Of a stretch of 64,000 bases of DNA, positions 2,095 to 25,298 are shown piece after piece. The stretch is from NCBI RefSeq assembly GCF_017742835.1, contig NZ_CP072392.1:707388-771387 (forward strand), written 5' to 3'. The notes under the pieces are model-generated. The model searched no databases, was not told the origin of the DNA, and was given only the letters and a program-made list of their open reading frames with translations. The stretch comes from Aquabacter sp. L1I39. Lineage in GTDB: Bacteria; Pseudomonadota; Alphaproteobacteria; Rhizobiales; Xanthobacteraceae. The position numbers and the translations under genes are program-made. Position 1 is the stretch's first letter, and the number at the start of each line of letters is the position of its first letter.

Positions 2095-2106
2095 ATACCA
2101 AGGTTT
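2095..2106 (-). promoter_or_regulatory. AWAC-N4-GTWT palindrome, copy 1
   Basis: On the minus strand it reads AAAC-CTTG-GTAT, facing the hydrolase gene. It is a member of the recurrent intergenic motif family and shares the CTTG centre with the copy at 20864. Confidence 0.5.
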
Positions 2107-2182
2107 ATTCCGGTGATGAGTGATCTTGCGATCGCAGCCGACAGAAAAACATGCTCGAATCTGCGTTTTTCCTATCCGCAGC

Positions 2183-2194
2183 ATACCTTCGTAT
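2183..2194. promoter_or_regulatory. AWAC-N4-GTWT palindrome, copy 2
   Basis: ATAC-CTTC-GTAT, flanked as CATAC...GTATAGG, in the divergent hydrolase/AraC intergenic region. Confidence 0.55.
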
Positions 2195-2361
2195 AGGCGG
2201 ATCATAACAAGCGATACTTGCGGCGTATGATCGTAGAATGGGGCAAGCCCGGGCACTTTCCTAAATTCGAGACGATACCGGCGTCGGCCAAATGGGGGCT
2301 TCGCTTCCTCGGGGTCCCCCGCCGCGCGCCAATCATCCCCGACAGACCGAGAGGAAAGACC

Positions 2362-3273
2362 ATGTTCGAGGCCTCCCCTCCCCCTGATGCCGCAGGATCA
2401 AGCACGCGCATACCGGCTTCCGCCCTCCAGCCCCCGGCCAAAAGCGCGGAGCTGGCGGAGACCGGCTTTCTTATTGGCCTGCGGCTTGACGAGGTCGGGA
2501 TCGCCATCTCCTTGCCGCCCACAAGCGCGCGCGGGCGGACGCCGACCCTGTCGGTCCCGAAAAGCCTCGCGGTGCTGTTTCCAGGGGTCGCGCATAGTGT
2601 CGGCCTCCCCTCCCGCCGCGTGGACCTTGCCGCCTTCTTCGTCCGGCAGCGGGCCCGGCGCTGGCCAGACGGCGTCCTGATGGTGGATGTACGCGCGGGC
2701 GACGATGGCGAGCTTGCCGCGCTCGCGACCGCACTTCTGGCCGCCTTGTCGCGCGACCCGGCCACGGCGGACCTTTATGCCGATGCCATCTGCGCGACCC
2801 TCGCCGCGCGCTGCGCCGAAAGGCCCCCGGCCGAGGCCAAAGCCCGGCGCCGGCCCTGCGGCCAATTGCCGAAATGGCGACTGAAGCGGGTGATGGACTA
2901 TGTGGACGCCCATCTGGACGCGCCGATCACGCTCGCCGACATGGCCGCCGCGGCCCGGCTGACGCGCATGCATTTCGCCGCGCAATTCCGCGCCGCCACG
3001 GGCCTGCGGCCTCATGATTATCTGCAGCGCCAGCGGATCGCGCGCGCCAAGATCCTGCTGGAGGAGGACATGCCCCTTGTGGAGGTGGCGGTTTCCGTCG
3101 GCTTTCAGACCCACGCCCATTTCACCACGGTGTTCGGCCGCCTCGTGGGCGAGCCGCCGTCCCGGTGGCGGCAGGCCCGCATGGCCGAGCGGCGCCGCAT
3201 GCGGGAGGCGCGCCCCAGGGCTGAAATGCACCGGCCCGTCGCCTCGCCGGAGGGCTTCCCCGCCCCGGCTTGA
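2362..3273 (+). CDS. AraC-family transcriptional regulator
   Basis: 303-residue AraC/XylS regulator. The C-terminal double HTH starts near LKRVMDYVDAHLDAPITLAD and continues through MAAAARLTRMHFAAQFR and VAVSVGFQTHAHFTTVFGRLVGEPPSRWR. The N-terminal part is a poorly conserved sensor domain without a recognised ligand motif. The ATG at 2362 has GAGAGGAAAG just upstream; a longer frame from 2218 would add 48 unlikely residues and swallow the promoter region. It is transcribed divergently from the Tat-exported hydrolase, which is its most plausible target by position. A rho-independent terminator follows. Confidence 0.87.
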   Translation: MFEASPPPDAAGSSTRIPASALQPPAKSAELAETGFLIGLRLDEVGIAISLPPTSARGRTPTLSVPKSLAVLFPGVAHSVGLPSRRVDLAAFFVRQRARRWPDGVLMVDVRAGDDGELAALATALLAALSRDPATADLYADAICATLAARCAERPPAEAKARRRPCGQLPKWRLKRVMDYVDAHLDAPITLADMAAAARLTRMHFAAQFRAATGLRPHDYLQRQRIARAKILLEEDMPLVEVAVSVGFQTHAHFTTVFGRLVGEPPSRWRQARMAERRRMREARPRAEMHRPVASPEGFPAPA

Positions 3274-3336
3274 TCCAACTGCGCAAAAGTGTGGCGGCAG
3301 GCCCTTCAGGCCCGCAACCGGCATTGGGACAGGACA

Positions 3337-3364
3337 GGGCCGCCACAGCACCGGCGGCCCTTTT
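3337..3364 (+). terminator. Rho-independent terminator after the AraC gene
   Basis: GGGCCGCC, an eight-base loop, GGCGGCCC and then TTTT: a perfect 8-bp stem placed between the AraC gene and the convergent antiporter gene. Confidence 0.75.
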
Positions 3365-3391
3365 CGTTGCGCACTTCGTCAGACACGTCCT

Positions 3392-5020: not shown

Positions 5021-5283
5021 GGCAATGCCGTCCGGCGGCCGGGGATGGCCCCGCGCCCTGTTGGATATGCAGTGCTAAAAGGAAGCCTTGTCTCAATTGG
5101 ACCTGCGGGCGCTCGCAGCGCGGCCCACCCGCATTCCGTCCATGTCAGCGCCGCATCGCTCCCCTGCCGGCGCGCGAAGGCGTGGCGGGATTGGACGTGA
5201 AGCGGCGAGCGGTGCCCGAAGAAGGCTTCCCCTCGCCGCGGTCTCATGGACCCGCGCGTGTCTCATGGCCCCGCGCGGGGCGG

Positions 5284-6417
5284 TCAGCCCTTCATGACGG
5301 GCTGGCGGGTGGCGCGCAGCGACGACAACAGCGGTTCGCCCACATCCAGATGCCCCGCCACGAGATGCCTCGGGGTCAAGGCAAGCCAGTTGTTGAGCGA
5401 AACGTCCTTGTATTCGCTGGTGTGGAATACATTGATCACCCGCACCGGCTCATCGCCGGTATTCTCGATATAGTGGGCCAGCGTCTTGGGCACATAGCCC
5501 ACGTCGCCGGCCACGAAATCGAAGGTGCGCGCATTGTCCACCGCGTCGAAGACGGTCATCCGCGCCTTGCCGCTGATATAATACTGGATCTCATCGGCGT
5601 CGGGATGCCAGTGGATCTCGCGCATGCCACCCGGCTCCAGGTCGATGAACAAAGCCGCGAGGTTGGTGACGCCGAACGTCTTTGCATCCACCACCGTGGT
5701 GGCACCACCGGGAAACCGGGTGGCGGCGAGCTGCGAGGCGCGGAAGACGTATTTATCGGTGAAAGTCACCGCCCCCAGAGCCGCCTTCACCTCCGCGAGC
5801 GGCGGCGGGACGGGCTGGCGGAAGATATACTTCTCATGCGCCGGAATCCCCTCGAAGGCCTCCACCGGCACGCCGAAATTCTTGGCCAGAACGTCGCGCG
5901 GGGTATGGGCGAAGAGTTCCGTCACCAGGAGGGTCTGGTTCTCGGAGAAATTGCCGTCATTGAAGACGAGGACAAATTCGGTCCCCTCCTCCAGGCCCTG
6001 GATGGCATGGGGAAAGCCCGCGGGGGCGAGCCACAGGTCGCCGGGGCCGAGATCCTCCACCAGGGTCTGGCGCTGGTCGTCCACCAGGTAGAAGCGCACG
6101 CGGCCCTTGAGCACATAGGCCCATTCGGCCTCCTTGTGCCAGTGCAGCTCGCGCACCACGCCCGGCGGCAGGCGCATATTGACGATGGCCAGCTCCTTCA
6201 GGGCGCCTAGCTCGCGCTGTGTCACCTCCCGCGCCCAGCCGCCGTCTTCCAGACGGTTGTGGGCCATGGCGAAGGGAAATTTCAGGTTCGCAATGCCGCC
6301 ATGGTCGGTGGAGGGCGGGATCAGGATGTCCGGATTCTGGGCCTCGACCTCAGGGTTGCGGGGCCCGACAATGTCGGCGCCCCGGGTGCCGACGATGGGC
6401 TGCTTCAGCACGGGCAT
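5284..6417 (-). CDS. oxdC: Oxalate decarboxylase, bicupin
   Basis: Mn-dependent bicupin of 377 residues that should convert oxalate to formate and CO2. Cupin 1 has HWHKEAEW and the later GFPH histidine; cupin 2 has HWHPDADE and TLAHY, so both 3-His/1-Glu metal sites are complete. Between them lies SENQT, aligned with the flexible SENS lid whose Glu is the proton donor that separates decarboxylases from oxidases in Bacillus OxdC (established knowledge). No secretion signal is evident, suggesting a cytoplasmic enzyme. I prefer the ATG at 6417, with GAGGAG about seven bases upstream, over the in-frame ATG at 6435. It stands alone; formate produced could feed a formate-handling enzyme, but this is inference. 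Confidence 0.88.
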   Translation of the reverse strand: MPVLKQPIVGTRGADIVGPRNPEVEAQNPDILIPPSTDHGGIANLKFPFAMAHNRLEDGGWAREVTQRELGALKELAIVNMRLPPGVVRELHWHKEAEWAYVLKGRVRFYLVDDQRQTLVEDLGPGDLWLAPAGFPHAIQGLEEGTEFVLVFNDGNFSENQTLLVTELFAHTPRDVLAKNFGVPVEAFEGIPAHEKYIFRQPVPPPLAEVKAALGAVTFTDKYVFRASQLAATRFPGGATTVVDAKTFGVTNLAALFIDLEPGGMREIHWHPDADEIQYYISGKARMTVFDAVDNARTFDFVAGDVGYVPKTLAHYIENTGDEPVRVINVFHTSEYKDVSLNNWLALTPRHLVAGHLDVGEPLLSSLRATRQPVMKG

Positions 6418-6763
6418 CGGAAACTCCTCGTTCATTGGATCTTGTGAAGGACGACCCTATTTCGGCCCACGAAACCTGTGCCGCGTTGTGATGGCGCAAA
6501 ATCACGACACAAGCGGCAGGACGCGGCTCGAAGGACCGCACGGCGCAGATCATCGAAAAGTGCACCAATACTTGCAAACGGACGGCCATATAAATGGGCC
6601 ATCCATCGGTATAGGGATTCAAGACGCCTGCCCGGCCAGTTCCACCTTGCGGATGATGGACCGGGACCGCCTCCGACGGCAGCCTCGGTAGGGCGTGGCG
6701 CCCGCACCCTCTGGAGCAGGCCGCTCGCCTCGTCCCGTCCGTTCCCAGCACCAAAGGCACGCG
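6418..6763. promoter_or_regulatory. Divergent intergenic region upstream of oxdC and the DUF1275 gene
   Basis: Divergent gene-free region of about 345 bases. It contains an AT-rich imperfect palindrome, GGCCATATAAATGGGCC, near 6583-6600, which could be an operator. I find no full AWAC-N4-GTWT site here and no convincing ORF. Confidence 0.4.
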
Positions 6764-7486: not shown

Positions 7487-7506
7487 CTGACAGCGTTAGA
7501 CCTTGA

Positions 7507-7518
7507 AAACCAAAGTAT
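7507..7518 (+). promoter_or_regulatory. AWAC-N4-GTWT palindrome, copy 3
   Basis: AAAC-CAAA-GTAT, about 140 bases upstream of the peroxiredoxin start codon. Confidence 0.45.
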
Positions 7519-7659
7519 GACCCGCCCAATCCAAGGGCCGATTTCACACCAAAGCCAGTCCTTCGACACTTGCAGGCCTGCGTGCCCCGCCTTGAAGCGG
7601 ACCATGCCTGGGATCGCCGATCCCCATCACCCGGCACGCACTGGAACAGGAGTGGCAAG

Positions 7660-8178
7660 ATGCAAGACATGACTGTGCCCGCCCCCGCCACCGCCCTTCA
7701 GCCGGGCGTGACGGCGCCGGATTTCACGCTTCCCGCAACGCCGGACCAGGCCCTTTCCCTGTCTGAGATGAAGGGCCATCCGGTGATCCTCGCCTTCTAC
7801 CCGGCCGACTGGAGCCCGGTGTGCGGCGACGAGATGAGCCTTCTCAACGCCGTGCTGCCGGAATTCCACAAGATGGGCGCGCAGCTGGTGGGCATCTCGA
7901 CGGACGGCGTGTGGTGTCACGCCGCCTTCGCGGCCGAGCGCAAGTTGCACTTCCCGCTCCTGGCCGACTTCGAGCCCAAGGGCGAGACGGCGCGGCGCTA
8001 TGGCGTCTATCGCCCGGTGGAAGGCGTGGCCGATCGCGCGTTGTTCGTCATCGACGCGCAAGGCGTCATCCGCTGGTCCTATGTCTCGCCGCTCGGCATC
8101 AATCCCGGAGCCGATGGCATCCTGGAGGCGCTGGACAAGCTCGCCGCCCATCCTCGTGCCGAAGGAGCGGCCGCATGA
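7660..8178 (+). CDS. Peroxiredoxin (AhpC/TSA family)
   Basis: Thiol peroxidase of 172 residues with a thioredoxin fold, reducing H2O2 or organic peroxides. The peroxidatic cysteine sits in FYPADWSPVCGDEM, where Ser replaces the usual Thr of the PxxxTxxC motif. I see no clear resolving cysteine in the C-terminal half, suggesting a 1-Cys mechanism (AhpE-like) that needs an external reductant. The start at 7660 has AGGAG nine bases upstream. Its stop codon overlaps the start of the DsbA-like gene (ATGA), so the two are translationally coupled and the partner could be its reductant. A motif copy lies upstream. Confidence 0.87.
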   Translation: MQDMTVPAPATALQPGVTAPDFTLPATPDQALSLSEMKGHPVILAFYPADWSPVCGDEMSLLNAVLPEFHKMGAQLVGISTDGVWCHAAFAAERKLHFPLLADFEPKGETARRYGVYRPVEGVADRALFVIDAQGVIRWSYVSPLGINPGADGILEALDKLAAHPRAEGAAA

Positions 8179-8705
8179 CCCGTCTCATCCCCCCGCTCGC
8201 TGGCGACGACCATGTTGCCGGGCCCGCCACCGCAGCCGTGACCCTGGTGGAATATGGCGACTATCAATGCCCCTATTGCGGCGAGGCTTACCCTGAACTG
8301 AAGGTGGTGCAGCGCGCCATGGGGCACGGCTTGCGCTTCGTGTTCCGGAACTTCCCGCTGGTGGAAGTCCATGCCCACGCCATGCGCGCGGCCCAGTTCG
8401 CCGAAGCGGCCGCCGAGGCCGGCCGGTTCTGGGAAGCCCATGATCTGCTTTATGAAAACCAGGATGCGCTCGATGACCAGAGCCTGCTCGCCTATGGCCA
8501 GCATCTCGGCCTCGACCGCGCCCTACTGATGGCCGCCTTCGAGGGGCGCCACGACGACAAGATCCAGCGGGATTTTCTTGGCGGGGTGCGCGGCGGCGTG
8601 AACGGAACGCCAAGCCTGTTCATCAACGGCCTTCTCTATGAGGGCCCGCGCGATGCGGCGAACCTCGTGGTGATCTTGCGGCAAGCCGCCAGCGTGCGTG
8701 CCTGA
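8175..8705 (+). CDS. DsbA-family thioredoxin-fold protein
   Basis: 176-residue thioredoxin-fold protein with the inserted helical domain of the DsbA family. The active site is CPYC in [17 protein letters not shown], and the cis-Pro loop is [10 protein letters not shown]. There is no signal peptide, so unlike periplasmic DsbA it should act in the cytoplasm. The ATG at 8175 overlaps the stop of the peroxiredoxin gene by four bases. Cytoplasmic DsbA-like proteins paired with peroxiredoxins may reduce or isomerise thiols under oxidative stress; that role here is inferred only from the coupling. Confidence 0.85.
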
Positions 8706-8784
8706 GCCGCCCGCTTCACGCGACCGAGCCGGAGCCAAGGGCGACCGGCATGCGCTCCTCTTTTCCTCATACGTGGTGACAGAC

Positions 8785-9987: not shown

Positions 9988-10016
9988 GGGCTCACATCCG
10001 ACAGCGCTCTGTCCCG

Positions 10017-12905: not shown

Positions 12906-12970
12906 GGCGATGTCCCGCGTTGGGAGGAACCGGCGTCGGGCGGCGGACCGGCCCCGAGGGGCCGTCCGGT

Positions 12971-14802: not shown

Positions 14803-14814
14803 ATACGTTGGGAT
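14803..14814. promoter_or_regulatory. AWAC-N4-GTWT palindrome, copy 4 (one mismatch)
   Basis: ATAC-GTTG-GGAT, preceded by C and followed by G. It lies about 95 bases upstream of poxB and downstream of the terminator that ends the YdeP-like gene, so it falls exactly in the poxB-cydAB promoter window. Confidence 0.4.
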
Positions 14815-14900: not shown

Positions 14901-14932
14901 CGGTCGGGGCGCCGCGTGCGGCCGCCCCTGTC

Positions 14933-17227
14933 TCACGCCGCGCGCGGGGGAGATTTCACCAGGCGGACGGGGACGCCTTTCGAGGCCGGGGTGAAGCTCT
15001 GCGGATCGTGCGCATAGAGCGGCACCAGCGGGTTGGTCTCGGGATAATAGGCGGCGCAACTCCCCTCCGGGAACGCATAGGGCACCACGCGGAACGCCCG
15101 CACCGCCCGCTCGATCCCATCGCGCGAGACCGTCACGATGTCCACGCGGTCCCCTTCCGCCAGTCCACGCCGCTCCATCTCGGCTTCAGCGAGGAAGATC
15201 ACGTCGCGCTGGCCATAGACGCCGCGATAACGATCGGAGAGCGAGTAGAGCGTGGTATTGTACTGGTCGTGGCTGCGCACGGTGGTGAGCCAGAGCACGT
15301 CGTCCACCCCCACCTGCGGGTCCTCGCAAAGCCCTTCGCAGACCAGGAAATTGGCCTTGCCCGTTGCCGTCGCCCAGATGCGCTCGCGGGCGAGCGAGGT
15401 GAGGTGGAAGCCGCCGGGGACGCGGATGCGGGTGTTGAAGCCCTGGAAGATGGGAAAGATGGCCTCGATCTCCTCCCGGATCAGCCCGTAGTCGGCCACC
15501 AGCGCTTCCCATTCCACCTTGGACCGCGTTCCGAGCGTTGCCCGCGCCAACCCGGCGATGATGGCGGGCTCGCTCTTCAGATGCTCCGAGGCGGGCGCAT
15601 TGTGGCCGATGGAGGCGTGCACCATGGACATGGTGTCTTCCACCGTCACCGACTGGGGGCCGCTCGCCTGCATGTCCACCTCGGTGCGCCCCAGGCACGG
15701 CAGGATCAGCGCATCGCGCCCATGGACGAGATGGCTGCGGTTGAGCTTGGTGGCGATGTGGACGGTGAGGTCCAGCTGGCGCATGGCCTCCTGCGTCAGC
15801 TGCCAGTCTGGAATGGCCGCGGCGAAATTGCCGCCAAGGCCGATAAAGACCTTGGCTTCGCCCTTCACCATGGCGTCCAGCGCCGTCACAACATTGTGGC
15901 CGGGGGCCTTGGGCGGGGTGAAGCCGTAGCGGGCTTCCAGCGCATCGAGCAGCGCCGGGGACGGAACCTCGGTGATCCCCACCGTCCGGTCGCCCTGCAC
16001 GTTGGAATGGCCGCGCACCGGGCAGATTCCCGTGCCCTCGCGCCCCACATTGCCCCGCAGCAGCGCCAGGTTCGCGATCTGCTGCACATTCTGCGTGCCG
16101 TGGCGATGCTGGGTGATGCCCATGCCATAGACGAGGATGGCCCGCTCGGCGCGCATATAGGCTTCGGCGGCAAAGATGATATCCGCGCGGGCAAGGCCAC
16201 TCTTGCGCACGATGTCGTCCCAGGAGGTGGCGTCGAGATCGGCGATGAGGGCATCGATGCCCTGGGTGTGGCCGCGAATGAAATCCCAATCGAGCACGGG
16301 GGCCTGGTCTTTGGCGCGGGCGTCGGCATCCGACGCCACCAGATGCTTCATGAGCCCCTTGATGAGCGCCACGTCGCCCCCCACCCGCACCTGGAACAGG
16401 CGGGACGAGATGGGCGTGGACGAGAGGGTCGCCATCTCCACCGGGCTCTGCGGCGCCTGGAAGCGCTCCAGCGCCCGCTCCCGGAAGGGATTGAAGGACA
16501 GGATGGTGGCGCCGCGCCGCGAGGCGTTGCGCAGCTCCGTCATCATGCGCGGCGAATTGGTGCCGGGATTCTGGCCGAAGATGAAGATGCAGTCGGCGCG
16601 TGCGAAGTCCTCCAGAACCACCGTGCCCTTGCCCACGCCGATGGACTGGGGCAAGCCGACGCTGGTGGCCTCGTGGCACATGTTGGAGCAGTCGGGAAAG
16701 TTGTTGGTCCCGTATTCGCGGGCAAACAGCTGGTAGAGAAACGCCGCCTCATTGGAGGCCCGGCCGGAGGTGTAGAAATCCGCCATGTTGGGGTCTGGCA
16801 GCGCGTTGAGATGCGCGCCCACCAGGGCGAACGCGTCCTCCCAGCTCACCGGCAGGTAGCGGTCGCTGGCCGCGTCATAGCGCATGGGATGAGTGAGGCG
16901 GCCCTCCATCTCCAGCTCATAGTCGTTCAGCGCCGCAAGCTCGGTAACCGTGTGGGCGGCGAAGAAATCGGGGGTGCAGCGGCGGGCGGTCATCTCCCAG
17001 GCCACCGCCTTGCCGCCATTCTCGCAATATTCAAAGGGCGAGGTGTGCTTGGGATCGCCCCAGCCGCAACCGGGGCAATCGAAGCCGCCGGGCTGGTTCA
17101 TGCGCGCCAAGGTCTCCATGCCGGCGACGGCCACATGCTGCTGCACCAGGGCCGTGCCCATGGCCTTGAGCGCGCCCCAGCCGCCGGCGGGCTGGTGATA
17201 GGGACGGATGGTCTTTGCGACGCCCAT
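14933..17227 (-). CDS. FdhF/YdeP-family molybdopterin oxidoreductase
   Basis: Cytoplasmic molybdenum bis-MGD oxidoreductase of 764 residues, almost the same length as E. coli YdeP. The N-terminal CPGCGWGDP and the YCENGGKAVAWE segment are typical of the family. NMCHEATSVGL aligns with the selenocysteine-His active site of formate dehydrogenase H, with Cys in place of Sec and the following His kept, so the active site looks competent. YdeP is linked to acid resistance in E. coli, but its reaction is unproven; a formate-dehydrogenase-like activity is possible. The ATG at 17227 has AGGAG seven bases upstream. A perfect motif copy sits about 150 bases upstream and a terminator follows. Confidence 0.85.
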   Translation of the reverse strand: MGVAKTIRPYHQPAGGWGALKAMGTALVQQHVAVAGMETLARMNQPGGFDCPGCGWGDPKHTSPFEYCENGGKAVAWEMTARRCTPDFFAAHTVTELAALNDYELEMEGRLTHPMRYDAASDRYLPVSWEDAFALVGAHLNALPDPNMADFYTSGRASNEAAFLYQLFAREYGTNNFPDCSNMCHEATSVGLPQSIGVGKGTVVLEDFARADCIFIFGQNPGTNSPRMMTELRNASRRGATILSFNPFRERALERFQAPQSPVEMATLSSTPISSRLFQVRVGGDVALIKGLMKHLVASDADARAKDQAPVLDWDFIRGHTQGIDALIADLDATSWDDIVRKSGLARADIIFAAEAYMRAERAILVYGMGITQHRHGTQNVQQIANLALLRGNVGREGTGICPVRGHSNVQGDRTVGITEVPSPALLDALEARYGFTPPKAPGHNVVTALDAMVKGEAKVFIGLGGNFAAAIPDWQLTQEAMRQLDLTVHIATKLNRSHLVHGRDALILPCLGRTEVDMQASGPQSVTVEDTMSMVHASIGHNAPASEHLKSEPAIIAGLARATLGTRSKVEWEALVADYGLIREEIEAIFPIFQGFNTRIRVPGGFHLTSLARERIWATATGKANFLVCEGLCEDPQVGVDDVLWLTTVRSHDQYNTTLYSLSDRYRGVYGQRDVIFLAEAEMERRGLAEGDRVDIVTVSRDGIERAVRAFRVVPYAFPEGSCAAYYPETNPLVPLYAHDPQSFTPASKGVPVRLVKSPPRAA

Positions 17228-17376: not shown

Positions 17377-17388
17377 ATACATGGGTAT
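17377..17388. promoter_or_regulatory. AWAC-N4-GTWT palindrome, copy 5
   Basis: ATAC-ATGG-GTAT, extended to CATAC...GTATG. It is located between the end of the HlyD-like gene and the start of the YdeP-like gene, in the promoter region of the latter. Confidence 0.55.
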
Positions 17389-17415
17389 GCGGGCCGGATC
17401 TTGAGCACCCCCGCC

Positions 17416-18360
17416 TCAGCGGCGGAGGGGCGCCGGGGACGTCCCGCTGGCCGGCTGCGGCGCTTCATCCAGGATGGAGATGGTCGCGGTGAGCCCGGCC
17501 GAAAGGGTGAGGGAGGGCGGCACCTGGTCCAGCACCACGCGGACCGGCACGCGCTGGGCGAGGCGAACCCAGGTGAAGACGGGGTTCACGGTGGCCAGGC
17601 CAGAGCCGTCGGGCTGCGCGTTCGGCACGGCGATGCCGCGCCCGATGCCGGTGACATGGCCCGTAAGGCGCTCGGGATAGGCCATCAGCGTCACCTCGGC
17701 CCGATCGCCCACATGGATGGTGTTGAGCAAAGTCTCCTCGAAATAGCCGTCCACCCAAAAGCTGTCGGCATCCACCACCGACAAAGCGCGCTGGCCGGTG
17801 GTGGCGAAGTCGCCCACCTGGGTGAGCAGGTTGGTCACATAGCCATTCACCGGCGAGACGATGGTGGTGCGATGGAGGTCGAGCTTGGCCTTGTCGCGCG
17901 CGGCAAGGGCCTGCTGGTAGGCGGCAAGCGCCATGGCCGCGCTCGACGCGAAGATCTGCTTCTCCTCGTCGGAGACGGCCAATGTGGTCAGGTGCGCCCG
18001 CCGCTCCGCCTCGGCCTGCTTGTTGTCGAGGTCCGCCTTGGCGCGGGCGACCGCCGCCTCCGCATTGGCGAGGGCAATCTGGTAGTCGTCAGGCTCGATC
18101 ACCATGAGCACGTCGCCCTTATGGACGAACTGGTCGGCCTTCACCGGCAATTCGACGATGCGCCCGGACACTTGCGGGGCGAGGGTGACCACATAGGCGC
18201 GCACTGTGCCGTCGCGGGTCCAGGGCGTGGCCATGTAAGTGAGCCATATCTCCCAGCACAGCGCCCCGGCGATGGCAGCGACCGCCAGGGTTGCCAGGAC
18301 GCGCAGGACCGGCGCGAGGGGAGAGGTGCGGGCTTCGGCGGGAAGGTCGATGCTGGTCAT
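17416..18360 (-). CDS. HlyD/AaeA-type membrane fusion protein
   Basis: Periplasmic adaptor of 314 residues with one N-terminal membrane anchor (about residues 18-42). Next comes the biotinyl-lipoyl-like half motif VSGRIVELPVKADQFVHKGDVL, an Ala/Lys-rich alpha-helical hairpin (~80-150), the second lipoyl half SPVNGYVTNLLTQVGD, and a beta-barrel. Small size and context with FUSC and DUF1656 match the AaeA/fusaric-acid class of efflux pumps, which export aromatic acids. GGAG lies eight bases before the ATG. Last gene of the FUSC-DUF1656-HlyD unit; the separate outer-membrane channel is not in the window. Confidence 0.85.
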   Translation of the reverse strand: MTSIDLPAEARTSPLAPVLRVLATLAVAAIAGALCWEIWLTYMATPWTRDGTVRAYVVTLAPQVSGRIVELPVKADQFVHKGDVLMVIEPDDYQIALANAEAAVARAKADLDNKQAEAERRAHLTTLAVSDEEKQIFASSAAMALAAYQQALAARDKAKLDLHRTTIVSPVNGYVTNLLTQVGDFATTGQRALSVVDADSFWVDGYFEETLLNTIHVGDRAEVTLMAYPERLTGHVTGIGRGIAVPNAQPDGSGLATVNPVFTWVRLAQRVPVRVVLDQVPPSLTLSAGLTATISILDEAPQPASGTSPAPLRR

Positions 18361-18412
18361 GTGAGGCTCCAGGGAGGGTCAGGGACGAGGCGAAGGGGAA
18401 AGGGCGCGGCGG

Positions 18413-18619
18413 TCAGGTCCACGCGCTCCAGGCGCGCACGATCGCCGCCAGGACGATGACGTAGACGCAGAGCTTGAAGAGGCCGGGATGCCAGACATGG
18501 CGCAGGAGGCCCAGGCGCACGCTGATGAGGCTCAGCGGCATCATGGCGAGCCAGGCGAGCAGCAGCATCACGGCGAAGGGGGCCACATAGACACCCAGAA
18601 TGTTGATCTCGCTGAACAT
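18413..18619 (-). CDS. DUF1656 (AaeX-like) small membrane protein
   Basis: 68-residue protein with two hydrophobic helices. The N-terminus MFSEINILGVYVAPF is the family signature, and a PLSLISVRLGLLRHVWHP segment follows. DUF1656 proteins accompany FUSC/HlyD aromatic-acid exporters, but their role is unproven. Its ribosome site GAGGA overlaps the stop of the upstream FUSC gene, only 12 bases away, indicating coupled expression. Confidence 0.82.
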   Translation of the reverse strand: MFSEINILGVYVAPFAVMLLLAWLAMMPLSLISVRLGLLRHVWHPGLFKLCVYVIVLAAIVRAWSAWT

Positions 18620-18631
18620 GGGTTTGCTTCC

Positions 18632-20680
18632 TCAGGCGCGGGCGGGCGCGGTCATGGGCTCGCGCGGGCCCAAAAGCGCGGTGTGGGCGAGAATGGCCTC
18701 GGCGAGCACCGCCACCTCGGCCTGCACCTCCGCCCACACCAGGGCAGGCGCAGGCGTGGTGGCGGCGGGCGCCGTCAAGGCTTCGAGATGATGCAGGGCG
18801 GCTGTTGGACGGCCTTGGGCCAATGCGGCGAGGGCTTCGGCCAGCGTCCGGTCGCCCGCCCCGCCGCCCACGGCGGCCCGCAGCTTGATGACGGCAAGCC
18901 CCATGGCGAGAAGCGCCAGCAAGGTGCCGTCCTGCTCCAGGCTCGCCTGCGGGGGGAGGCTCTCCAGCCGGCGTGTCAACAATGCCTGCCAGCGCCGGGA
19001 AAGCGATCCGCCCGGATCGCGGCTGAGCCGCCGCAGGTCCCGCACGGACAAGCGGATCAGCCGGGCCGCGCGCTGCGCCGGCTCCATCACCGGCAGGATG
19101 ATGAAGAACAAGGTTCCCGCCGCGCTGCCGGCGAAGATGGCGAAGGCGACGTTGAAATAGCCTGCCGGATCATAGGCAACGGGATTGCCGATGCCCAGGA
19201 GCGGCAGCGCCGTGATGGACATGGCGAGGAAGACCGCGCTGTGCCAGGTGCCCACCTGCATCATGCCGAGCGGTACATAAAGGAGGAACAGCAGGGCCAT
19301 CAGCGCCGGGAAGGTGGAGAGCGCGGGAAGCACGAAGAAATAGATCCCGCTGCCCAGGAGCGTCATCGCCGCGACGCCGAGGCTGTAATCGCTCGCCCGC
19401 ATCCGCGCCTCATCGCCGAAGGAGGCGAAGATGAGGGTGGAGATCACCGCGAAGGCCACCGCAAAGGCGCCGCTCGGCCAGGCGGTGGCGATCCAGAAGG
19501 CGCTCACCACCAGCACCGACAGGACAGCGCGCGCGCCCGCTTGCCAGGCGGGCAAGCTGTCGGCGATGACCCAGGGCTGACGCGGCACTGGCTTGCGGTC
19601 GCCCGCCCCGGTGCGCAGGAACACCACCGCATCGATGAAGTGCGCGAGGCAGAGGGCCACATCGCGGGTGGCATCCGCCAAGAGACGATCGGATGGGTCG
19701 GCCTGCGCCACCTGCTGGCGCAGCGCCTCGATCTCCGCCACCGCCTGCCGCCCCACGGCCTGGGAGAGCAGGGCCTGCCGCTCGGGCGCCGCCGGATTGA
19801 TGCGCGCGAGCCGCGCGGCCAGCGCACGCCGGAACGCGCGGGTCGCCTCACCCGCAGCGGCCGCCCCGCGACCGGCATTGCGCCAACCCACGAGCGCCAG
19901 GGCCAAACTCGCCAAGGCCAGACGGAAATTGCCCCGCCGCGAATAAAGGACGGCCGCCTCGCCGGTCGCCGCGTCCACGGCTGCGCCCAGCGGGGTGAGG
20001 GCCTTGACCACTTTGCGCCGGGCCGCGGCCATGGCGGCGGTCTCAGTCCCGTTTTCGAGCGTCTCCAGGAAGCCGGCACGCAGTTGGAGAGCGGTGCGCT
20101 CCATCAGGCCCGCGAGGGAAAGCCGCGCGGCACCGGGCTCGGTGAGCAGCATGACCACGGCGGCGGCGGCGATCCCGATGCAGATCTCGCTCACCCGGCC
20201 AATCCCGAGGACGAAGGCGGTGGTGGGGTCGGCGATGGAATCGGCGAAAAGAATGGCGGCGGTGATGCCCGACAAGGCGGCGGCATAGGCGGCGGAATTG
20301 CGCAGCAGCACCACGGCGGCCCCGCACAGGCCACACCACAGGGCGAGACACAGGAGGAAGGCGATGCGCTGCTGGGGAAACAGCGCCAGCAGGGACACCA
20401 GCGCCAGCGCGCCGAGCACGGTGCCCAGGGCGCGGAAGCGGCCTTTCTGGAGGGAAGCTCCGAGATTGGGCTGGCAGACGATGGCCGCTGTGGTGGCCGC
20501 CCAGAACGGATTGGGCAGTTCCAGCATATAGGTGACATACAAAGCGAGGCAGACGGAGGATGCCAGCCGGACCCCGAACAGGAACCGGGGAACAAGTGCG
20601 CCGAGCCTGGTTCGGAATGCGAGCGGCACCAACCGCCCGAGGGTTCCCGCCCGGAAAAGGGTATCACTGTCCGCGCTCAT
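18632..20680 (-). CDS. FUSC-family (AaeB/fusaric acid resistance) inner-membrane transporter
   Basis: 682-residue transporter with the duplicated FUSC layout: an N-terminal membrane block of about six helices (roughly residues 20-180), a large cytoplasmic helical domain (180-360), a second membrane block (about 375-525) and a C-terminal helical domain. It should form the energised part of a tripartite efflux system with the HlyD-like adaptor downstream, exporting aromatic carboxylates or related weak acids; the substrate is inferred from the family. First gene of the leftward unit, divergent from the histidine kinase gene, with motif copies in the shared promoter region. Confidence 0.83.
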   Translation of the reverse strand: MSADSDTLFRAGTLGRLVPLAFRTRLGALVPRFLFGVRLASSVCLALYVTYMLELPNPFWAATTAAIVCQPNLGASLQKGRFRALGTVLGALALVSLLALFPQQRIAFLLCLALWCGLCGAAVVLLRNSAAYAAALSGITAAILFADSIADPTTAFVLGIGRVSEICIGIAAAAVVMLLTEPGAARLSLAGLMERTALQLRAGFLETLENGTETAAMAAARRKVVKALTPLGAAVDAATGEAAVLYSRRGNFRLALASLALALVGWRNAGRGAAAAGEATRAFRRALAARLARINPAAPERQALLSQAVGRQAVAEIEALRQQVAQADPSDRLLADATRDVALCLAHFIDAVVFLRTGAGDRKPVPRQPWVIADSLPAWQAGARAVLSVLVVSAFWIATAWPSGAFAVAFAVISTLIFASFGDEARMRASDYSLGVAAMTLLGSGIYFFVLPALSTFPALMALLFLLYVPLGMMQVGTWHSAVFLAMSITALPLLGIGNPVAYDPAGYFNVAFAIFAGSAAGTLFFIILPVMEPAQRAARLIRLSVRDLRRLSRDPGGSLSRRWQALLTRRLESLPPQASLEQDGTLLALLAMGLAVIKLRAAVGGGAGDRTLAEALAALAQGRPTAALHHLEALTAPAATTPAPALVWAEVQAEVAVLAEAILAHTALLGPREPMTAPARA

Positions 20681-20766
20681 GGGTTCGCCACAGGGTCTCG
20701 TTCTGGGAGAGCCCGAGCATAGGCGCGCAGCGGAAGGACGAAATTATACTTGGAATGCTGCGTATA

Positions 20767-20778
20767 GAACCTTGGTTT
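20767..20778. promoter_or_regulatory. AWAC-N4-GTWT palindrome, copy 6 (one mismatch)
   Basis: GAAC-CTTG-GTTT with a perfect AACCTTGGTT core, about 90 bases upstream of the FUSC start codon. Confidence 0.45.
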
Positions 20779-20863
20779 ATCAGGGCGTGCCCTGCCCGGG
20801 CCTTGGCCCTCCACGCCCCGATTCTGGCCGCTGGCGCCGTTCATATTCCAGGAGGGGGTGCGC

Positions 20864-20875
20864 ATACCTTGGTAT
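20864..20875. promoter_or_regulatory. AWAC-N4-GTWT palindrome, copy 7
   Basis: ATAC-CTTG-GTAT; the perfect palindrome extends to CATACC-TT-GGTATG. It lies in the divergent FUSC/histidine kinase region. Confidence 0.6.
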
Positions 20876-21158
20876 GGGAGCAACACTGCGGAAGGGCTGG
20901 CATACTGCCCCGCAGAATTCCGGCTGCGCCGTGAAAGGCGAAGGCCGGGCTCCGGCGAGCCGCGCGCCGGGCCAGAACGACACAAAGCCAGGGACCGGGA
21001 CGCATGAGGCGCAAGACAGGAGATGGAGGGTTCGACATGGCGCGCGATCCGCTGGGATCGCGGGATCGGAGAGGGGCGACGAACACTCTGGATTCTTGCC
21101 CGGATCCGGCGCGACGCGGCCCTTCTGCCCCTCACACTGGCCAATGATCGAGGACGCC

Positions 21159-22655
21159 ATGCCCGGCACGCGAAGCGCCCTGTTGCCTAAGCCCGAGCCG
21201 AAGGGAACCGGCTTTGTCGGGCAGCTGCTGGTGGCGTGCCTGTGCCTGGCGATCTTCCTGGTCGACACCGTGTCGCCCCTCGATATGGCCATCGCCGTGC
21301 TCTACGTGGTGGTAGTGCTGCTGTCATCGAACTGGTTCAAGAGCACCGGCCTGATGCTCATCGGTACCGGCTGCGTGGGGCTGGCGGTGATCAGCTTCTT
21401 TGTCATGCACGCGCAGGACTACAATCTGGCATCGGTCATGCGATGCGTGGTGAGCATCGCCGCCATCTCCGTGACGACCTTGCTATGCCTGCGCAACCTG
21501 GAGGCCACCGCTTCCCTGCGGGCGCAGGCCGCCCTGCTCGACCTCTCGCACGACGCCATCTTCGTGCGCGATCCCGCCGATGCCATCCTCTATTGGAACG
21601 TGGGCGCGGAGCGCCTCTATGGCTGGTCGCGGGACGAGGCGCTGGGCTTTGCGGCCACCAGCCTGCTGCGCACGGTGCTGCCGGCGCCGCGCGCCGAGAT
21701 CATGGCGACCCTGGAGGCCACCGCGCACTGGGAGGGCGAGGTGATCCACACCACGCGCGATGGGCGCAAGGTCACGTGCCTCAGCCGCTGGTCGCTCCAG
21801 CGGGACGCGCGGGGGCGCAGCCAGGGCATCATGGAGACGAACCACGACATCACGGCGCGCAAGGCGGCGGAGAACGACCTGCACCGAGCGCAGGCGGACC
21901 TGGCGCATGTGACGCGCGTGAGCACCATGGGGGAACTCACCGCCTCCATCGCCCATGAGGTGAACCAGCCGCTGGCGGCGGTTGTCACCAATGGGGAAGC
22001 GTGCCTGCGCTGGCTGCGCCGGCCGGTGCCCGATCTCGGCGAGGCGGAAAACACGGTCACCCGCATGATTGCCAATGCCCGCCGCGCCAGCGAGGTGGTG
22101 GCGCGGCTGCGCGCCCTGGTGCGCCGGGGGGAGCCCGATCACCACCCCATCGCCCCGGCCGAACTCGTGGAGGAAAGCGTGCTGCTGCTGGAGCGGGAGC
22201 TGGCCAATCACCGCGTCCGGCTGGAGCTGGAGCTCGACCCCGATTTGCCCCCCATAAAGGGCGACCGGATCCAGTTGCAGCAGGTTCTGATCAATCTGGG
22301 GCTCAATGCCATCCAGGCCATGGACGCGGTGCCCGAGCAAGCCCGCCTCCTGACCATTCGCGGAACCCTCGCGGACGCCAGCCTGGAGCCCGAGGGGGAT
22401 CGCCTGATCGCCCTGACGGTGGAGGATACGGGCCCCGGCGCGCAGTTGCAGCCCTTGGTCTCTCTTTTCACGCCCTTCGTCTCCACCAAGAAGGACGGGA
22501 TCGGCATCGGCCTGTCCATCTCGCGCTCCATCGTCGAGGCGCATGGCGGCCGGATCTCGGCCGACTCCGCGCCGCAGGGCGGGCTGCGCTTCACCTTCAC
22601 CCTGCCCGCCGCCGGCGAAACACCGCCGCCTCGCGCCAAGGAAACCCTGTCGTGA
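21159..22655 (+). CDS. Membrane-bound PAS sensor histidine kinase
   Basis: 498-residue sensor kinase. Three to four hydrophobic helices occupy about residues 18-115, without a sizeable periplasmic loop, so it probably senses a membrane or cytoplasmic signal. A PAS domain (~120-240) follows, with no obvious haem or flavin residues that I can assign. The HisKA H-box is TASIAHEVNQPLAAVV, and the HATPase has N (LINLGLNAIQAM), G1 (VEDTGPGA) and G2 (GIGIGLSISRSIVEAHGG) boxes. It is of the FixL/StyS-like group. GAGG precedes the ATG at 21159; a long upstream frame is rejected because it would cover the promoter region. It overlaps the response regulator gene by four bases. Confidence 0.85.
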   Translation: MPGTRSALLPKPEPKGTGFVGQLLVACLCLAIFLVDTVSPLDMAIAVLYVVVVLLSSNWFKSTGLMLIGTGCVGLAVISFFVMHAQDYNLASVMRCVVSIAAISVTTLLCLRNLEATASLRAQAALLDLSHDAIFVRDPADAILYWNVGAERLYGWSRDEALGFAATSLLRTVLPAPRAEIMATLEATAHWEGEVIHTTRDGRKVTCLSRWSLQRDARGRSQGIMETNHDITARKAAENDLHRAQADLAHVTRVSTMGELTASIAHEVNQPLAAVVTNGEACLRWLRRPVPDLGEAENTVTRMIANARRASEVVARLRALVRRGEPDHHPIAPAELVEESVLLLERELANHRVRLELELDPDLPPIKGDRIQLQQVLINLGLNAIQAMDAVPEQARLLTIRGTLADASLEPEGDRLIALTVEDTGPGAQLQPLVSLFTPFVSTKKDGIGIGLSISRSIVEAHGGRISADSAPQGGLRFTFTLPAAGETPPPRAKETLS

Positions 22656-23308
22656 TCAGCCGTCCGCACAGCCGAACCGCACCTGCCCCCGCAGCGCCCG
22701 TTGTGATCGTCGTCGACGACGACGCGGACCTGCGGGACGCCCTGTCCAGCCTGTTCCGGTCCATCGGGCTGGAGGTGGCGTCCTTCGCCTCCGCGGCGGA
22801 GCTTCTGGCCGCCAAGCTCCCCGACGCGCCCCGCTGCCTCGTGCTGGACATCCGCCTTCCCGGCGTCAGCGGCCTGGACTTCCAGAACCAGTTGACCAAG
22901 TCCGACCTGGACCTGCCCATCATCTTCATGACCGGGCACGGCGATATTCCCATGACGGTGCGGGCCATGAAGGCCGGCGCGGTGGACTTCCTCACCAAGC
23001 CCTTCCGCGACCAGGACATGCTGGACGCCGTCGCCGCGGCCATCGAGATCGACCGGGTCCGGCGCGCCGAGCGCGAGGCCGCCGCCCGGCTCCGCACGCT
23101 CTATGGGGGCCTGACCGAGCGCGAAAAGCAGATCATGGCGCTGGTGACATCCGGCCTCATGAACAAGCAGGTGGCCGGGGAAGTAGGGCTGAGCGAAATT
23201 ACCGTTAAGATTCATCGCGGTAACGTCATGCGCAAGATGGAGGCCCACTCCCTGGCCGATCTCGTGCGCATGGCCGAGGCCCTCGGCGTCCGGGTGGAAA
23301 AGAGCTAG
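22652..23308 (+). CDS. FixJ/StyR-type response regulator (receiver plus LuxR HTH)
   Basis: 218-residue two-component transcription factor. Receiver domain: acidic pocket in VVDDDAD, phospho-acceptor Asp in LDIRLPGVSG, Thr in MTGHGD, Lys in TKPF. LuxR-type HTH: LTEREKQIMALVTSG, then a recognition helix around LSEITVKIHRGNVMRKM. It is paired with the kinase: the GTG start at 22652 overlaps the kinase stop (GTGA). FixJ-family regulators such as StyR bind palindromes of the form AAAC-N4-GTTT (from memory), which closely resembles the intergenic motif repeated around this locus. It is therefore my candidate for the protein binding those sites. Confidence 0.87.
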   Translation: MISRPHSRTAPAPAAPVVIVVDDDADLRDALSSLFRSIGLEVASFASAAELLAAKLPDAPRCLVLDIRLPGVSGLDFQNQLTKSDLDLPIIFMTGHGDIPMTVRAMKAGAVDFLTKPFRDQDMLDAVAAAIEIDRVRRAEREAAARLRTLYGGLTEREKQIMALVTSGLMNKQVAGEVGLSEITVKIHRGNVMRKMEAHSLADLVRMAEALGVRVEKS

Positions 23309-23314
23309 TGCGAC

Positions 23315-23326
23315 AAACAAGTGTAT
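23315..23326 (+). promoter_or_regulatory. AWAC-N4-GTWT palindrome, copy 8
   Basis: AAAC-AAGT-GTAT immediately after the response regulator stop and about 80 bases upstream of the receiver gene. It runs into TATAAT, so the right half could also be a -10 box. Confidence 0.45.
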
Positions 23327-23407
23327 AATTCAGGTGATGGGCGTGGGGGCCTATATTGAGTGCAAGGCGGTGCTCCCGTAGCGCCGCAGGATAGAGGTGT
23401 GTCGCTC

Positions 23408-23794
23408 GTGTCCCATGTCCCGATGATCACGATCATCGATGATGACGAATCCGTTCGCCTGGCCACCGAGAGCCTCGTGCGCTCACTCGGCCTGGGCGCC
23501 AGCGTGTTCGCGTCCGCCGAAGCCTTCCTGCGGTCTCCGGAGCGGCACTGCACGGCGTGCGTCATCACCGATGTGCAAATGCCCGGCATGAGCGGCATCG
23601 ACCTTCAGGCGCGCCTGCGCACCGAAGGAGATCGGCTGCCCCTCATCTTCATCACCGCTTTCCCCGAAGAGCGAATCCGCAGCCAGGTGCAGGCGGCGGG
23701 CGCGGTGGGGTTCCTCGCCAAGCCCTTCGAGGGAGACGCCATGATTCAGTGCATCGACGACGCGCTGCGCGCCACGGGCCAGTCCCGCCCCTGA
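23408..23794 (+). CDS. Stand-alone receiver-domain protein
   Basis: About 128 residues comprising only a CheY-like receiver: IIDDDES acidic pocket, phospho-acceptor Asp in ITDVQMPGMSG, Thr in FITAF and Lys in LAKPF. It resembles the receiver half of FixJ without an output domain, so it may act as a phosphate sink, a competitor or a partner of the neighbouring kinase. The start is uncertain: GTG at 23408 has GAGG nine bases upstream, while GTG 23399 and ATG 23423 are alternatives. It has its own upstream motif copy, which suggests separate induction from the kinase operon. Confidence 0.8.
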   Translation: MSHVPMITIIDDDESVRLATESLVRSLGLGASVFASAEAFLRSPERHCTACVITDVQMPGMSGIDLQARLRTEGDRLPLIFITAFPEERIRSQVQAAGAVGFLAKPFEGDAMIQCIDDALRATGQSRP

Positions 23795-24099
23795 GCCTTC
23801 CGGTCACGATCGGCGTGCCACGGGCCCCGGCGCCCGGCGCCCGGCGGCGGCCCCGGGCTCTTCTGCTCCCCAATTGCAGCGCGGCATATTGGATTTGCAC
23901 ATCGACGCCATGCGTGCAGTCGATCCGCCCTCCCCTCTCGTAGAATCGGCGATCTGAGCTTCTAAACGATCGTATAGTCGCGCAAACCGATCGATCACTT
24001 ACGCCCCCTCCGCCCTTTTCCTAAGGTGTTCCTGCTCACCTCGCGGGATTTGAAAGTCACCGCCGGTCGGCCTGAAATTCTCACGCAGGAATGACCATC
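23795..24099. promoter_or_regulatory. Intergenic region upstream of dps
   Basis: About 305 bases. The left part is a very GC-rich stretch around 23820-23862 that can fold into long hairpins, perhaps ending the receiver transcript. The right part is less GC-rich and carries the motif copy at 23964. No credible gene is visible. Confidence 0.5.
23964..23975 (+). promoter_or_regulatory. AWAC-N4-GTWT palindrome, copy 9
   Basis: AAAC-GATC-GTAT followed by AG, about 125 bases upstream of the dps start codon. Confidence 0.5.
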
Positions 24100-24615
24100 A
24101 TGAACACCCCTCTCGTGAAGGAGCGCCAGAAGGCGCCCCTCGCCACGCCGACCGACCTCGGGTCCAATGCCACGCGCGACATCGCGCCGGCCCTCACCCT
24201 TCTGCTTGCGGACATGTTTGCTCTTTATTTGAAGACGAAGAATTTCCACTGGCACATGTCCGGCCCCCACTTCCGCGACTACCATCTCCTTCTCGACGAG
24301 CAGGGCGAACAGATCTTCGCCACCACCGACGACATCGCCGAGCGCGCCCGCAAGATCGGGGGCACCACGCTGAGGTCCATCGGACACATCGCCCGCCTGC
24401 AGCGGATCGCCGACAACGATGCCGATTATGTGGATGCGCAGGACATGCTCGCCGAGCTCTGCGAGAACAACAAGGCCATCGTCACCGCCCTGCGCGAAGT
24501 CCATGGCGTGTGCGACGAATATGGTGACGTCGCGACTGCGAGCCTCATCGAGAACTGGATCGACGAGGCCGAGCGGCGCACCTGGTTCCTTTACGAAGCC
24601 ACCCGCACCCGCTGA
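24100..24615 (+). CDS. dps: Dps-family ferritin-like DNA-protection protein
   Basis: 171-residue mini-ferritin that stores iron, consumes H2O2 and may bind DNA. The inter-subunit ferroxidase ligands are in the segment KNFHWHMSGPHFRDYHLLLDE and the following EQIF. The rest is a four-helix bundle with family-like length. I prefer the ATG at 24100, with GCAGGA at a normal distance, to the ATG at 24091, which directly abuts that site. Dps is often annotated as starvation- or peroxide-induced; here an upstream motif copy suggests control by the FixJ-type regulator. A strong terminator follows. Confidence 0.9.
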   Translation: MNTPLVKERQKAPLATPTDLGSNATRDIAPALTLLLADMFALYLKTKNFHWHMSGPHFRDYHLLLDEQGEQIFATTDDIAERARKIGGTTLRSIGHIARLQRIADNDADYVDAQDMLAELCENNKAIVTALREVHGVCDEYGDVATASLIENWIDEAERRTWFLYEATRTR

Positions 24616-24633
24616 CACCCTTCCTCCCGCCTG

Positions 24634-24666
24634 GCCCGCCGATCTCGCGTCGGCGGGCTTTTTTTT
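24634..24666 (+). terminator. Rho-independent terminator after dps
   Basis: GCCCGCCGA, a short loop, TCGGCGGGC, then eight T. It is a perfect 9-bp stem located 20 bases behind the dps stop. Confidence 0.92.
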
Positions 24667-24806
24667 GCCCGCCGCTCCAACTCTCGCACGCCGCGCGCGG
24701 CTTCATGGCGCCAGGACGGCGTGTGCGCGCAATTGGCGGCGCGCGCGCCTATCATCGCCCCCGTCCCCACAGGGCGAACGAAAGGCGGGCCATCCCGTCA
24801 AACGTC

Positions 24807-24843
24807 AAAAAAACAAAAACCTCGCCGATCGCTCGGCGAGGTT
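24807..24843 (-). terminator. Rho-independent terminator after the small secreted protein
   Basis: On the minus strand AAACCTCGCCGA, loop GCGA, TCGGCGAGGTTTT and then TGTTTTTTT. It ends the leftward small-gene transcript. Confidence 0.88.
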
Positions 24844-24897
24844 TGGCGGTGTTTCAAGGGGGCGCCGTGGTGCCCCCTTCGAGGGGCAGCCGTCGGC

Positions 24898-25185
24898 TCA
24901 GTCCATATCGGCGTCGTGCGCCGAGCCGGAATGAGGGTCGTTGGACTGGAACGGCGCCTCATTCACATAATAGGGACCGGGGGTGCCGAAGGTGCTGGGC
25001 CGCACCTGTTCGCGCTGCTGGCGAACGGTGGCGGTGTTGGCGGTGGGGAACAAGGTCTCCTGGGCGGAGACCGCATACTGCTCCTGGTTCTCCGGGCCGA
25101 TATAGATATCGGCGAAGGCCGCATTGGCCGAAGCAGCGAGGGTGAGAGCGATACCGGTGACGATGGTGAGGGTCTTGATGGACAT
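24898..25185 (-). CDS. Small secreted protein of unknown function
   Basis: 95-residue protein that I do not recognise. It has a clear Sec signal peptide (MSIKTLTIVTGIALTL with an ASANAAFA cleavage region) and a mature part of about 65 residues without cysteines, Gln/Thr/Pro-rich, ending in an acidic His/Asp tail. GGAG lies eight bases before the ATG at 25185; a GTG nine bases further upstream is less likely. It forms a single-gene unit with its own promoter region, containing a perfect motif copy, and a strong terminator, which argues that it is a real, regulated gene. Periplasmic location is inferred. Confidence 0.72.
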   Translation of the reverse strand: MSIKTLTIVTGIALTLAASANAAFADIYIGPENQEQYAVSAQETLFPTANTATVRQQREQVRPSTFGTPGPYYVNEAPFQSNDPHSGSAHDADMD

Positions 25186-25286
25186 ATCGAACACTCCGTT
25201 GTCGATGGATGTAATGTGCCATCAGCCGCTCATCCGGAGTATTCTATGGACGTTCAGAGAAGTTATACGCGGATTTTCTCAATCCT

Positions 25287-25298
25287 ATACGGGCGTAT
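25287..25298. promoter_or_regulatory. AWAC-N4-GTWT palindrome, copy 10
   Basis: ATAC-GGGC-GTAT, about 100 bases upstream of the small secreted protein gene. On the minus strand it continues as GTATAGG, like copy 2. Confidence 0.55.

Follow-up and report, generated by a model that had tools for sequence, protein, structure and literature searches.

A recurrent palindrome as the predicted operator of a StyR-related, autoregulated response regulator in an energy and stress gene island of Aquabacter sp. L1I39

A stretch of 64,000 nucleotides from Aquabacter sp. L1I39 (hereafter the window; positions 707388-771387 of a genome made of one contig of 5,388,224 bases) carries between its genes a recurrent palindrome, AWAC-N4-GTWT, concentrated at window positions 2095-25298. 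It is likely that this palindrome is the operator of a StyR-related response regulator encoded in the same island (22652-23308), which would be an autoregulated activator of the energy and stress genes around it. An earlier note, made from the same DNA, had proposed that the palindromes form the regulon of this adjacent FixJ-family regulator, and the conservation of the sites beside orthologous genes makes this the best reading of the set. The operator type and the regulator family are already known; what appears new is the regulon itself, together with its variant operator and a receiver under autoregulation. No description of the operator and regulon stood among the top-ranked results of searches of the open-access literature, which is not proof of absence; the four papers that contain letters of consensus-like sites look unrelated, judging from their titles.

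Clustering and conservation of the palindrome

The window contains nine exact matches to AWAC-N4-GTWT, compared with 0.21 +/- 0.43 expected from 100 dinucleotide shuffles, none of which reached nine. The ten copies listed by eye in the earlier note are each present at their positions and each lie between called genes. Eight are exact (2095, 2183, 7507, 17377, 20864, 23315, 23964 and 25287) and two are one-mismatch forms: 14803 is one base off, and 20767 reads GAAC-CTTG-GTTT. A further one-mismatch site, at 6601, had been overlooked; exact sites stand at the matching place in two relatives, G018, which belongs to the same genus, and G013. The 106 sites used for a scoring profile, taken from the named relatives described below, have the consensus TCATACCTAGGTATGA, with AWAC-N4-GTWT as its core. 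At a score threshold of 9, the profile gives 11 matches in the window and none in the reversed window. Nine of the matches score at least 11, every one of them intergenic and inside 2095-25298; the two weaker matches, both at 9.4, are found at 6601 and 30693, and site 20767 scores below 9. The ninth exact match of the window (30829-30840, AAACGTGCGTTT) was dropped as an operator because its flanks differ from those of the other sites; it also scores below 9 and is probably due to chance, and the same 12-mer occurs in G018.

Genome-wide enrichment, which the earlier note had offered as a check, fails in that form: AWAC-N4-GTWT occurs 42 times in the genome and the reversed-pattern control 47 times, the excess being confined to the island. 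Eight of the 42 are located inside 23.2 kb (0.43% of the genome), where 0.15 would be expected from the rest of the genome. The probability of this cluster is about 5e-12, or about 1e-9 once multiplied by the number of such windows, and the largest cluster in 20,000 random placements held six sites. Outside the window, 13 of the 33 sites are intergenic. This proportion and the control count rule out a genome-wide regulon, and the palindrome marks a local island or regulon. All sites outside the island were scored and two of the better-scoring were inspected, neither being counted as a target. One (5177139) stands directly before an frr-like gene, as read by eye from its translation; the other (4883691; G000:C1, L071), a perfect palindrome of sequence GCATACTTTTGTATGC, precedes a dehydrogenase-like gene that is clustered with an IclR-like one, both likewise named by eye, and its inner 12-mer also occurs in G018. 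Within the window, an AT-rich inverted repeat seen by eye at 27635-27659 (AAAAATCTC-N7-GAGATTTTT), between a transporter-like gene and one resembling IclR, is likely a separate operator.

Relatives of the regulator were collected from 60 further genomes of the family, where the search, this genome included, matched 56 of 61, and from named genomes. The named set consists of the best 80 of 516 regulator matches, and the close relatives among these belong to Xanthobacter, Azorhizobium, Ancylobacter, Bradyrhizobium and Mesorhizobium. The family set comprises, from among the matches listed, 22 locus groups taken as long stretches and 29 short loci used for helix comparison. Counts per gene family pool the 80 named loci, the 22 groups and the window; these overlap (suggested cases are G022 = L128, G048 = L141 and G010 = L186) and are not independent genomes.

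In this material, the four-base spacing is specific. The 80 named loci hold 168 sites with N4 and between 7 and 23 with each of twelve other spacings (0-12); in the 22 locus groups outside the window, the corresponding figures are 53 and 6-19. When the groups and the window are taken together, 54 of 62 sites are intergenic, though intergenic DNA makes up 14% of the sequence, and of the matches to the reversed pattern 7 are intergenic and 8 coding. The site also tracks a neighbouring gene. It lies within 150 bases past the regulator match in 62 of the 80 named loci, with no match to the reversed pattern in that interval, and a stand-alone receiver gene follows in all 62. Counted from the receiver, the site is present in 62 of 69 loci with this gene and in 0 of 10 without it, one locus being too short (Fisher 1.3e-8).

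The conservation of sites before orthologous genes, which the earlier note had also proposed to examine, holds away from the receiver as well. The site stands before ydeP in five of five orthologues of 81-100% identity, two of which are apart from the regulator: in G041 the two genes are on different contigs, and in G022 some 37 kb of one contig separates them. Among ydeP-like genes of at most 75% identity, none of 14 has the site. This pattern fits an operator that would act in trans. G018 has much the same gene block as the island and G013 has it too, lacking dps and the small gene in the examined stretch; in both, most of these genes are again preceded by sites. For ten paired sites of the window and G018, the core agrees at 78 of 80 positions and the flanks at 412 of 800, as selection on the core would produce; the core identity is inflated, since most G018 sites were picked by the motif itself.

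The sites could also be -10 boxes or AT-rich palindromes that arose by chance between genes. In favour of this, intergenic DNA is AT-rich, and over the whole genome the motif is as common as its reversed control. Clustering in 23.2 kb, the N4 specificity and the absence of reversed-pattern matches in the same interval of the 80 loci argue against it, as does conservation before ydeP away from the regulator. Spacing, co-occurrence of site and receiver, and the ydeP conservation rule it out in practice, and we give it next to no probability.

The regulator as the probable binding protein

The protein encoded at 22652-23308 had been described in the earlier note as a FixJ/StyR-type regulator. Its receiver and helix-turn-helix (HTH) architecture agrees with this label, and it is nearer to StyR: among solved structures the best match is 1YIO (215.5 bits), which we take to be StyR, and FixJ (5XSO) reaches 142.7 bits. 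On the FixJ equivalog NF006900 it scores 198.8 bits, under the cut-off of 255. PMC5874301 gives Lys175, Val176 and His179 in the recognition helix of StyR as common to TodT, TutB and TmoT, and suggests that the operator may be ATAAACN4GTTTAT. Only one of the three residues is identical here (Lys175 is kept, Val176 is replaced by Ile and His179 by Gly), a point to be set among those weighing against the proposed binding. At the position of His179, the named orthologues whose helices were listed have Gly and, once, Ala, apart from one misread row. Because His179 is Gly, the regulator is, as judged from its sequence, StyR-related rather than a member of the StyR/TodT group, and to that extent the earlier label needs narrowing. 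The predicted operator and the StyR/TodT box have the inner AWAC-N4-GTWT in common and differ in the outer bases (TCATACCTAGGTATGA versus ATAAACN4GTTTAT). Altered residues beside an altered operator make sense; that one accounts for the other is a guess.

Variation of the helix among relatives is consistent with binding by the response regulator. In the 29 family loci, an adjacent site accompanies 14 of 21 regulators with the recognition-helix lysine and 0 of 8 with a glutamate there (Fisher 0.002); one glutamate-type relative has a site 1.4 kb away. A different binder is nonetheless to be considered, chiefly the divergent AraC-type protein (2362-3273), for which the response regulator would be a mere neighbour. 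In the overlapping pool, the AraC-type gene bears the site in 47 of 50 loci, it adjoins the kinase gene in many genomes, and the response regulator retains the StyR recognition residues only in part. Against this, a site no more than 420 bases from a receiver gene occurs in 69 of the 80 named loci, and only 32 of these 69 also have a site at an AraC-type gene, which makes the AraC-type protein the weaker candidate. The site also tracks the lysine-type recognition helix, and in its core it is similar to the StyR/TodT operator that has been published. Since AraC proteins as a rule bind direct repeats, which further counts against this protein, we regard it as an improbable binder.

The signalling genes, namely those for the receiver, the kinase and the AraC-type protein, are the ones that most often bear a site. 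The kinase family has it in 60 of 91 loci of the pool; with the count for the AraC-type gene, this makes the signalling module its own main target. Other families with a site include peroxiredoxin-dsbA (8 of 10), dps (7 of 17) and the small secreted protein (4 of 4).

Target genes and promoter geometry

The palindromes of the island are predicted operators for the following genes. The site at 2095..2106 (minus strand; AAACCTTGGTAT on that strand) precedes an alpha/beta hydrolase gene (948..2006, minus), a proposed target, with TACAAT 24.5 bp from its centre. It has counterparts before the same gene in G018 (39480) and G013 (264), and with G018 the core agrees at 8 of 8 positions against 41 of 80 in the flank. 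The site at 2183..2194 (plus) precedes the AraC-type HTH regulator gene (2362..3273, plus), also a proposed target, with TAGAAT 45.5 bp from the centre. The one-mismatch site at 6601..6612 (plus; profile 9.4) lies between a DUF1275 gene and the gene for a bicupin of the oxalate decarboxylase family (5284..6435, minus; TIGR03404, 502.1 bits, cut-off 254.2), which is a possible target. A peroxiredoxin and DsbA-like gene pair (7660..8705, plus) is a proposed target of the site at 7507..7518 (plus), found at the same place in G018 and G013.

Further along the island, the one-mismatch site at 14803..14814 (minus; profile 13.5) precedes poxB, encoding a ubiquinone-dependent pyruvate dehydrogenase (NF006591, 991.6 bits, cut-off 792), and cydA-cydB; these genes (10507..14707, minus) form a probable operon and a proposed target. 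The corresponding G018 site (28438) scores 15.5, and upstream of poxB in G013 there is a one-mismatch copy below threshold, ATCC-N4-GTAT. The site at 17377..17388 (minus) precedes ydeP, a proposed target (14933..17227, minus), and stands at -129 to -161 in the five close orthologues. The product is an FdhF/YdeP-family molybdopterin oxidoreductase (TIGR01701, 986.8 bits, cut-off 582.15) that is under the cut-off of the YdeP equivalog NF007406 (976.5 versus 1473). Two further ydeP-like genes were noted. A second one in the same genome (L212, G000:C1:4696099-4698348; 51% identity) has no site; in a Reyranella metagenome-assembled genome (L188), outside the Xanthobacter-Azorhizobium group, one near a relative of the regulator (66% identity) bears the palindrome.

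A probable target is the HlyD, DUF1656 and FUSC efflux operon (17416..20680, minus), preceded by the one-mismatch site at 20767..20778 (minus; GAACCTTGGTTT) with TATAAT, seen by eye, 24.5 bp from the centre. The site at 20864..20875 (plus; profile 20.2) precedes the histidine kinase gene (21147..22655, plus), whose product has a hydrophobic N-terminus in which no Pfam domain was found, followed by PAS, HisKA and HATPase_c domains. Next comes the StyR-related response regulator (22652..23308, plus; receiver and GerE/LuxR HTH), the proposed binder. Between it and the stand-alone receiver gene (23399..23794, plus) lies the site at 23315..23326 (plus), with TATATT 31.5 bp from the centre. The site at 23964..23975 (plus) precedes a Dps/ferritin-like gene (24100..24615, plus), and that at 25287..25298 (minus) precedes the gene of a small predicted secreted protein (24898..25185, minus), with a signal-like N-terminus by eye and no Pfam match; both genes are proposed targets. 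The island also encodes a Na+/H+ exchanger and an MFS transporter besides the DUF1275 protein; within the window, no exact site belongs to any of these three genes. The set was said in the earlier note to join alternative respiration, efflux and stress protection, and the site-bearing genes are indeed energy, efflux and stress genes together with signalling genes.

Promoter-like hexamers lie at preferred distances from the palindromes. Over 77 site-gene pairings, with divergent pairs taken both ways, the distances from the centre at which strong -10-like hexamers peak are 24.5 (13), 31.5 (7), 45.5 (8), 46.5 (7) and 52.5 (8); most of the remaining offsets have 0-3, and the highest of them has 6, at 14.5. 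The offsets 24.5 and 45.5, like 31.5 and 52.5, are 21 bases apart, or two turns of the helix. When kinase-promoter sites are read towards the AraC-type gene, TANNNT occurs at 45.5 in 24 of 49. In receiver promoters, YANNNT is found at 31.5 or 32.5 in 37 of 60, the mean for other offset pairs being 1.8. If the -10 hexamer is taken to begin at -12, the palindrome centre falls near -36, -43, -57 or -64, where activators act, and activation is therefore favoured. The -43 class resembles the STY2 site of StyR, located at about -40 according to PMC2442086.

The same promoters bear on whether the regulator could bind and yet repress, at least at the receiver gene. There, R-A-T-T follows GTAT (A/G about half each, 78% A, 93% T, 93% T), and the resulting right half GTATRATT could itself be a -10 box under the dimer; the downstream hexamer of the receiver promoters is mostly the weak CANNNT. 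Repression has to contend with the YANNNT at 31.5 or 32.5 downstream, and with the other targets, where the RATT extension is missing and -10-like boxes stand at 24.5 or 45.5. We consider it unlikely, with activation the preferred mode. The suggestion in the earlier note that some right halves are simply -10 boxes is disfavoured by the downstream hexamers at preferred distances, but may apply to the receiver promoter with its GTATRATT and mostly weak CANNNT.

Beyond the recognition residues, several observations weigh against an operator of this regulator. Genome-wide, the palindrome is not above its reversed control. The exact site is missing from three of the 22 locus groups (G012a, G012b and G058) and from 7 of the 69 named loci with a receiver; moreover, the loci are related, many being from Bradyrhizobium, and their counts are not independent. 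Regulators with a VTVK- or ATVK-type helix (L027-L030 and L035) have no AWAC-N4-GTWT nearby, and one (L032, VTVK) does; the operator of the former may differ. The ydeP gene of G024 (75% identity), about 19 kb from a regulator orthologue, is without a site, as are the peroxiredoxin genes of G041, G010 and G057. With respect to promoters, no offset reached 30% of the 49 on the kinase side, and one other offset pair reaches 19 of 60 in receiver promoters. Only 2 of 60 receiver promoters have TANNNT at 31.5, where the hexamer is otherwise the weak -10 CANNNT, and the peroxiredoxin and dps promoters of the window have modest -10 candidates (6.9 and 7.6 at 52.5).

Proposed circuit and known systems

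From the arrangement of sites and genes, we infer a circuit in which the kinase would phosphorylate the response regulator, and a dimer of the phosphorylated protein would bind the palindrome, whose centre would lie some 36, 43, 57 or 64 bp ahead of the transcription start, and activate transcription. Its most widespread targets would be its own kinase promoter, the AraC-type gene transcribed divergently and the stand-alone receiver next to it. A neighbouring block has the operator as well in the Xanthobacter-Azorhizobium lineage and would be controlled with them: YdeP, PoxB-cytochrome bd, peroxiredoxin-DsbA, FUSC efflux, the bicupin, Dps and the small secreted protein.

A damping effect on the kinase is the probable role of the receiver. 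According to PMC7078487, FixLJ induces FixT, which in turn inhibits the autophosphorylation of FixL, and by analogy we propose that the receiver would limit the response, acting on its kinase as FixT does on FixL. Its phosphorylation residues (D14, D15, D58, T86 and K108) are kept in 98-100% of 89 aligned sequences, all site-bearing and drawn from the overlapping pool, and it is the proposed feedback element. A Cys four residues before the phospho-accepting Asp is present in 89 of 89 receivers; it is possibly a family trait and possibly redox-related. The four-cysteine motif of Caulobacter FixT is unlikely here, Cys occurring in more than 10% of sequences at three columns only. The FixLJ-FixT systems of Sinorhizobium and Caulobacter share with this module a FixL-like kinase core, a FixJ-family regulator and a single receiver. 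The module differs in its recognition helix, in a receiver gene that directly follows the regulator gene, and in both proteins being under the FixJ/FixL equivalog cut-offs, the kinase scoring 194.6 bits on NF041777 (cut-off 850). The FixJ sites reported in PMC4999443 differ from the palindrome. Among relatives, the hydrophobic N-terminus of the kinase has a similar counterpart in one from Bradyrhizobium (L171), and another kinase (L133) has different sensor parts.

StyR, TodT and TmoT of Pseudomonas, which act in aromatic catabolism, likewise combine a receiver with a FixJ-family HTH. Lys175 is common to them and to the regulator of the island, and their operator core AAAC-N4-GTTT fits AWAC-N4-GTWT. 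By contrast, the half-sites here favour ATAC with outer C/G (TCATACCTAGGTATGA) over ATAAAC, a small PAS kinase and an extra stand-alone receiver are present, and energy, efflux, stress and signalling genes take the place of aromatic operons. AcfR of Azorhizobium caulinodans ORS571 belongs to the same broad FixJ family, with 44.02% similarity to the A. caulinodans FixJ, and no binding site is reported for it in the parts of PMC7945327 covered. The primers given there match neither 40-kb locus of the close orthologues in G013, and if G013 is A. caulinodans ORS571, AcfR would be another gene.

A functional parallel is offered by EvgSA, the system of E. coli that responds to acid. EvgA is of the NarL/FixJ class, and the efflux and oxalate enzymes it controls in E. 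coli belong to other families than those of the island. According to PMC3720670 and PMC8174306, EvgA controls ydeP, the efflux operon emrKY and an oxalate-decarboxylating operon, and evgAS is not autoregulated; the module described here, unlike EvgSA, is autoregulatory by its predicted sites. YdeP, efflux and oxalate decarboxylation, which are also EvgA targets, recur in the island. Taken with the Na+/H+ exchanger, PoxB, cytochrome bd, Dps and peroxiredoxin, they give the block the look of a response to weak acid and redox stress. A broader scenario can be put forward tentatively, as a possibility we find somewhat doubtful. A widespread, self-wired cassette (AraC-type gene, kinase, regulator and receiver, with the palindrome at each promoter and a transcriptional brake) might have annexed the neighbouring block in the Xanthobacter-Azorhizobium lineage and become an acid/redox master switch there, independently of E. 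coli EvgSA.

Altogether, the analysis provides a predicted operator, binder and target list for a regulator whose close relatives are found in genera that include plant symbionts, and it predicts a built-in feedback receiver. Peroxide defence, efflux, YdeP, cytochrome bd and pyruvate oxidase would come under one switch, and the operator appears to be a relative of the StyR/TodT box that serves a purpose other than aromatic catabolism.

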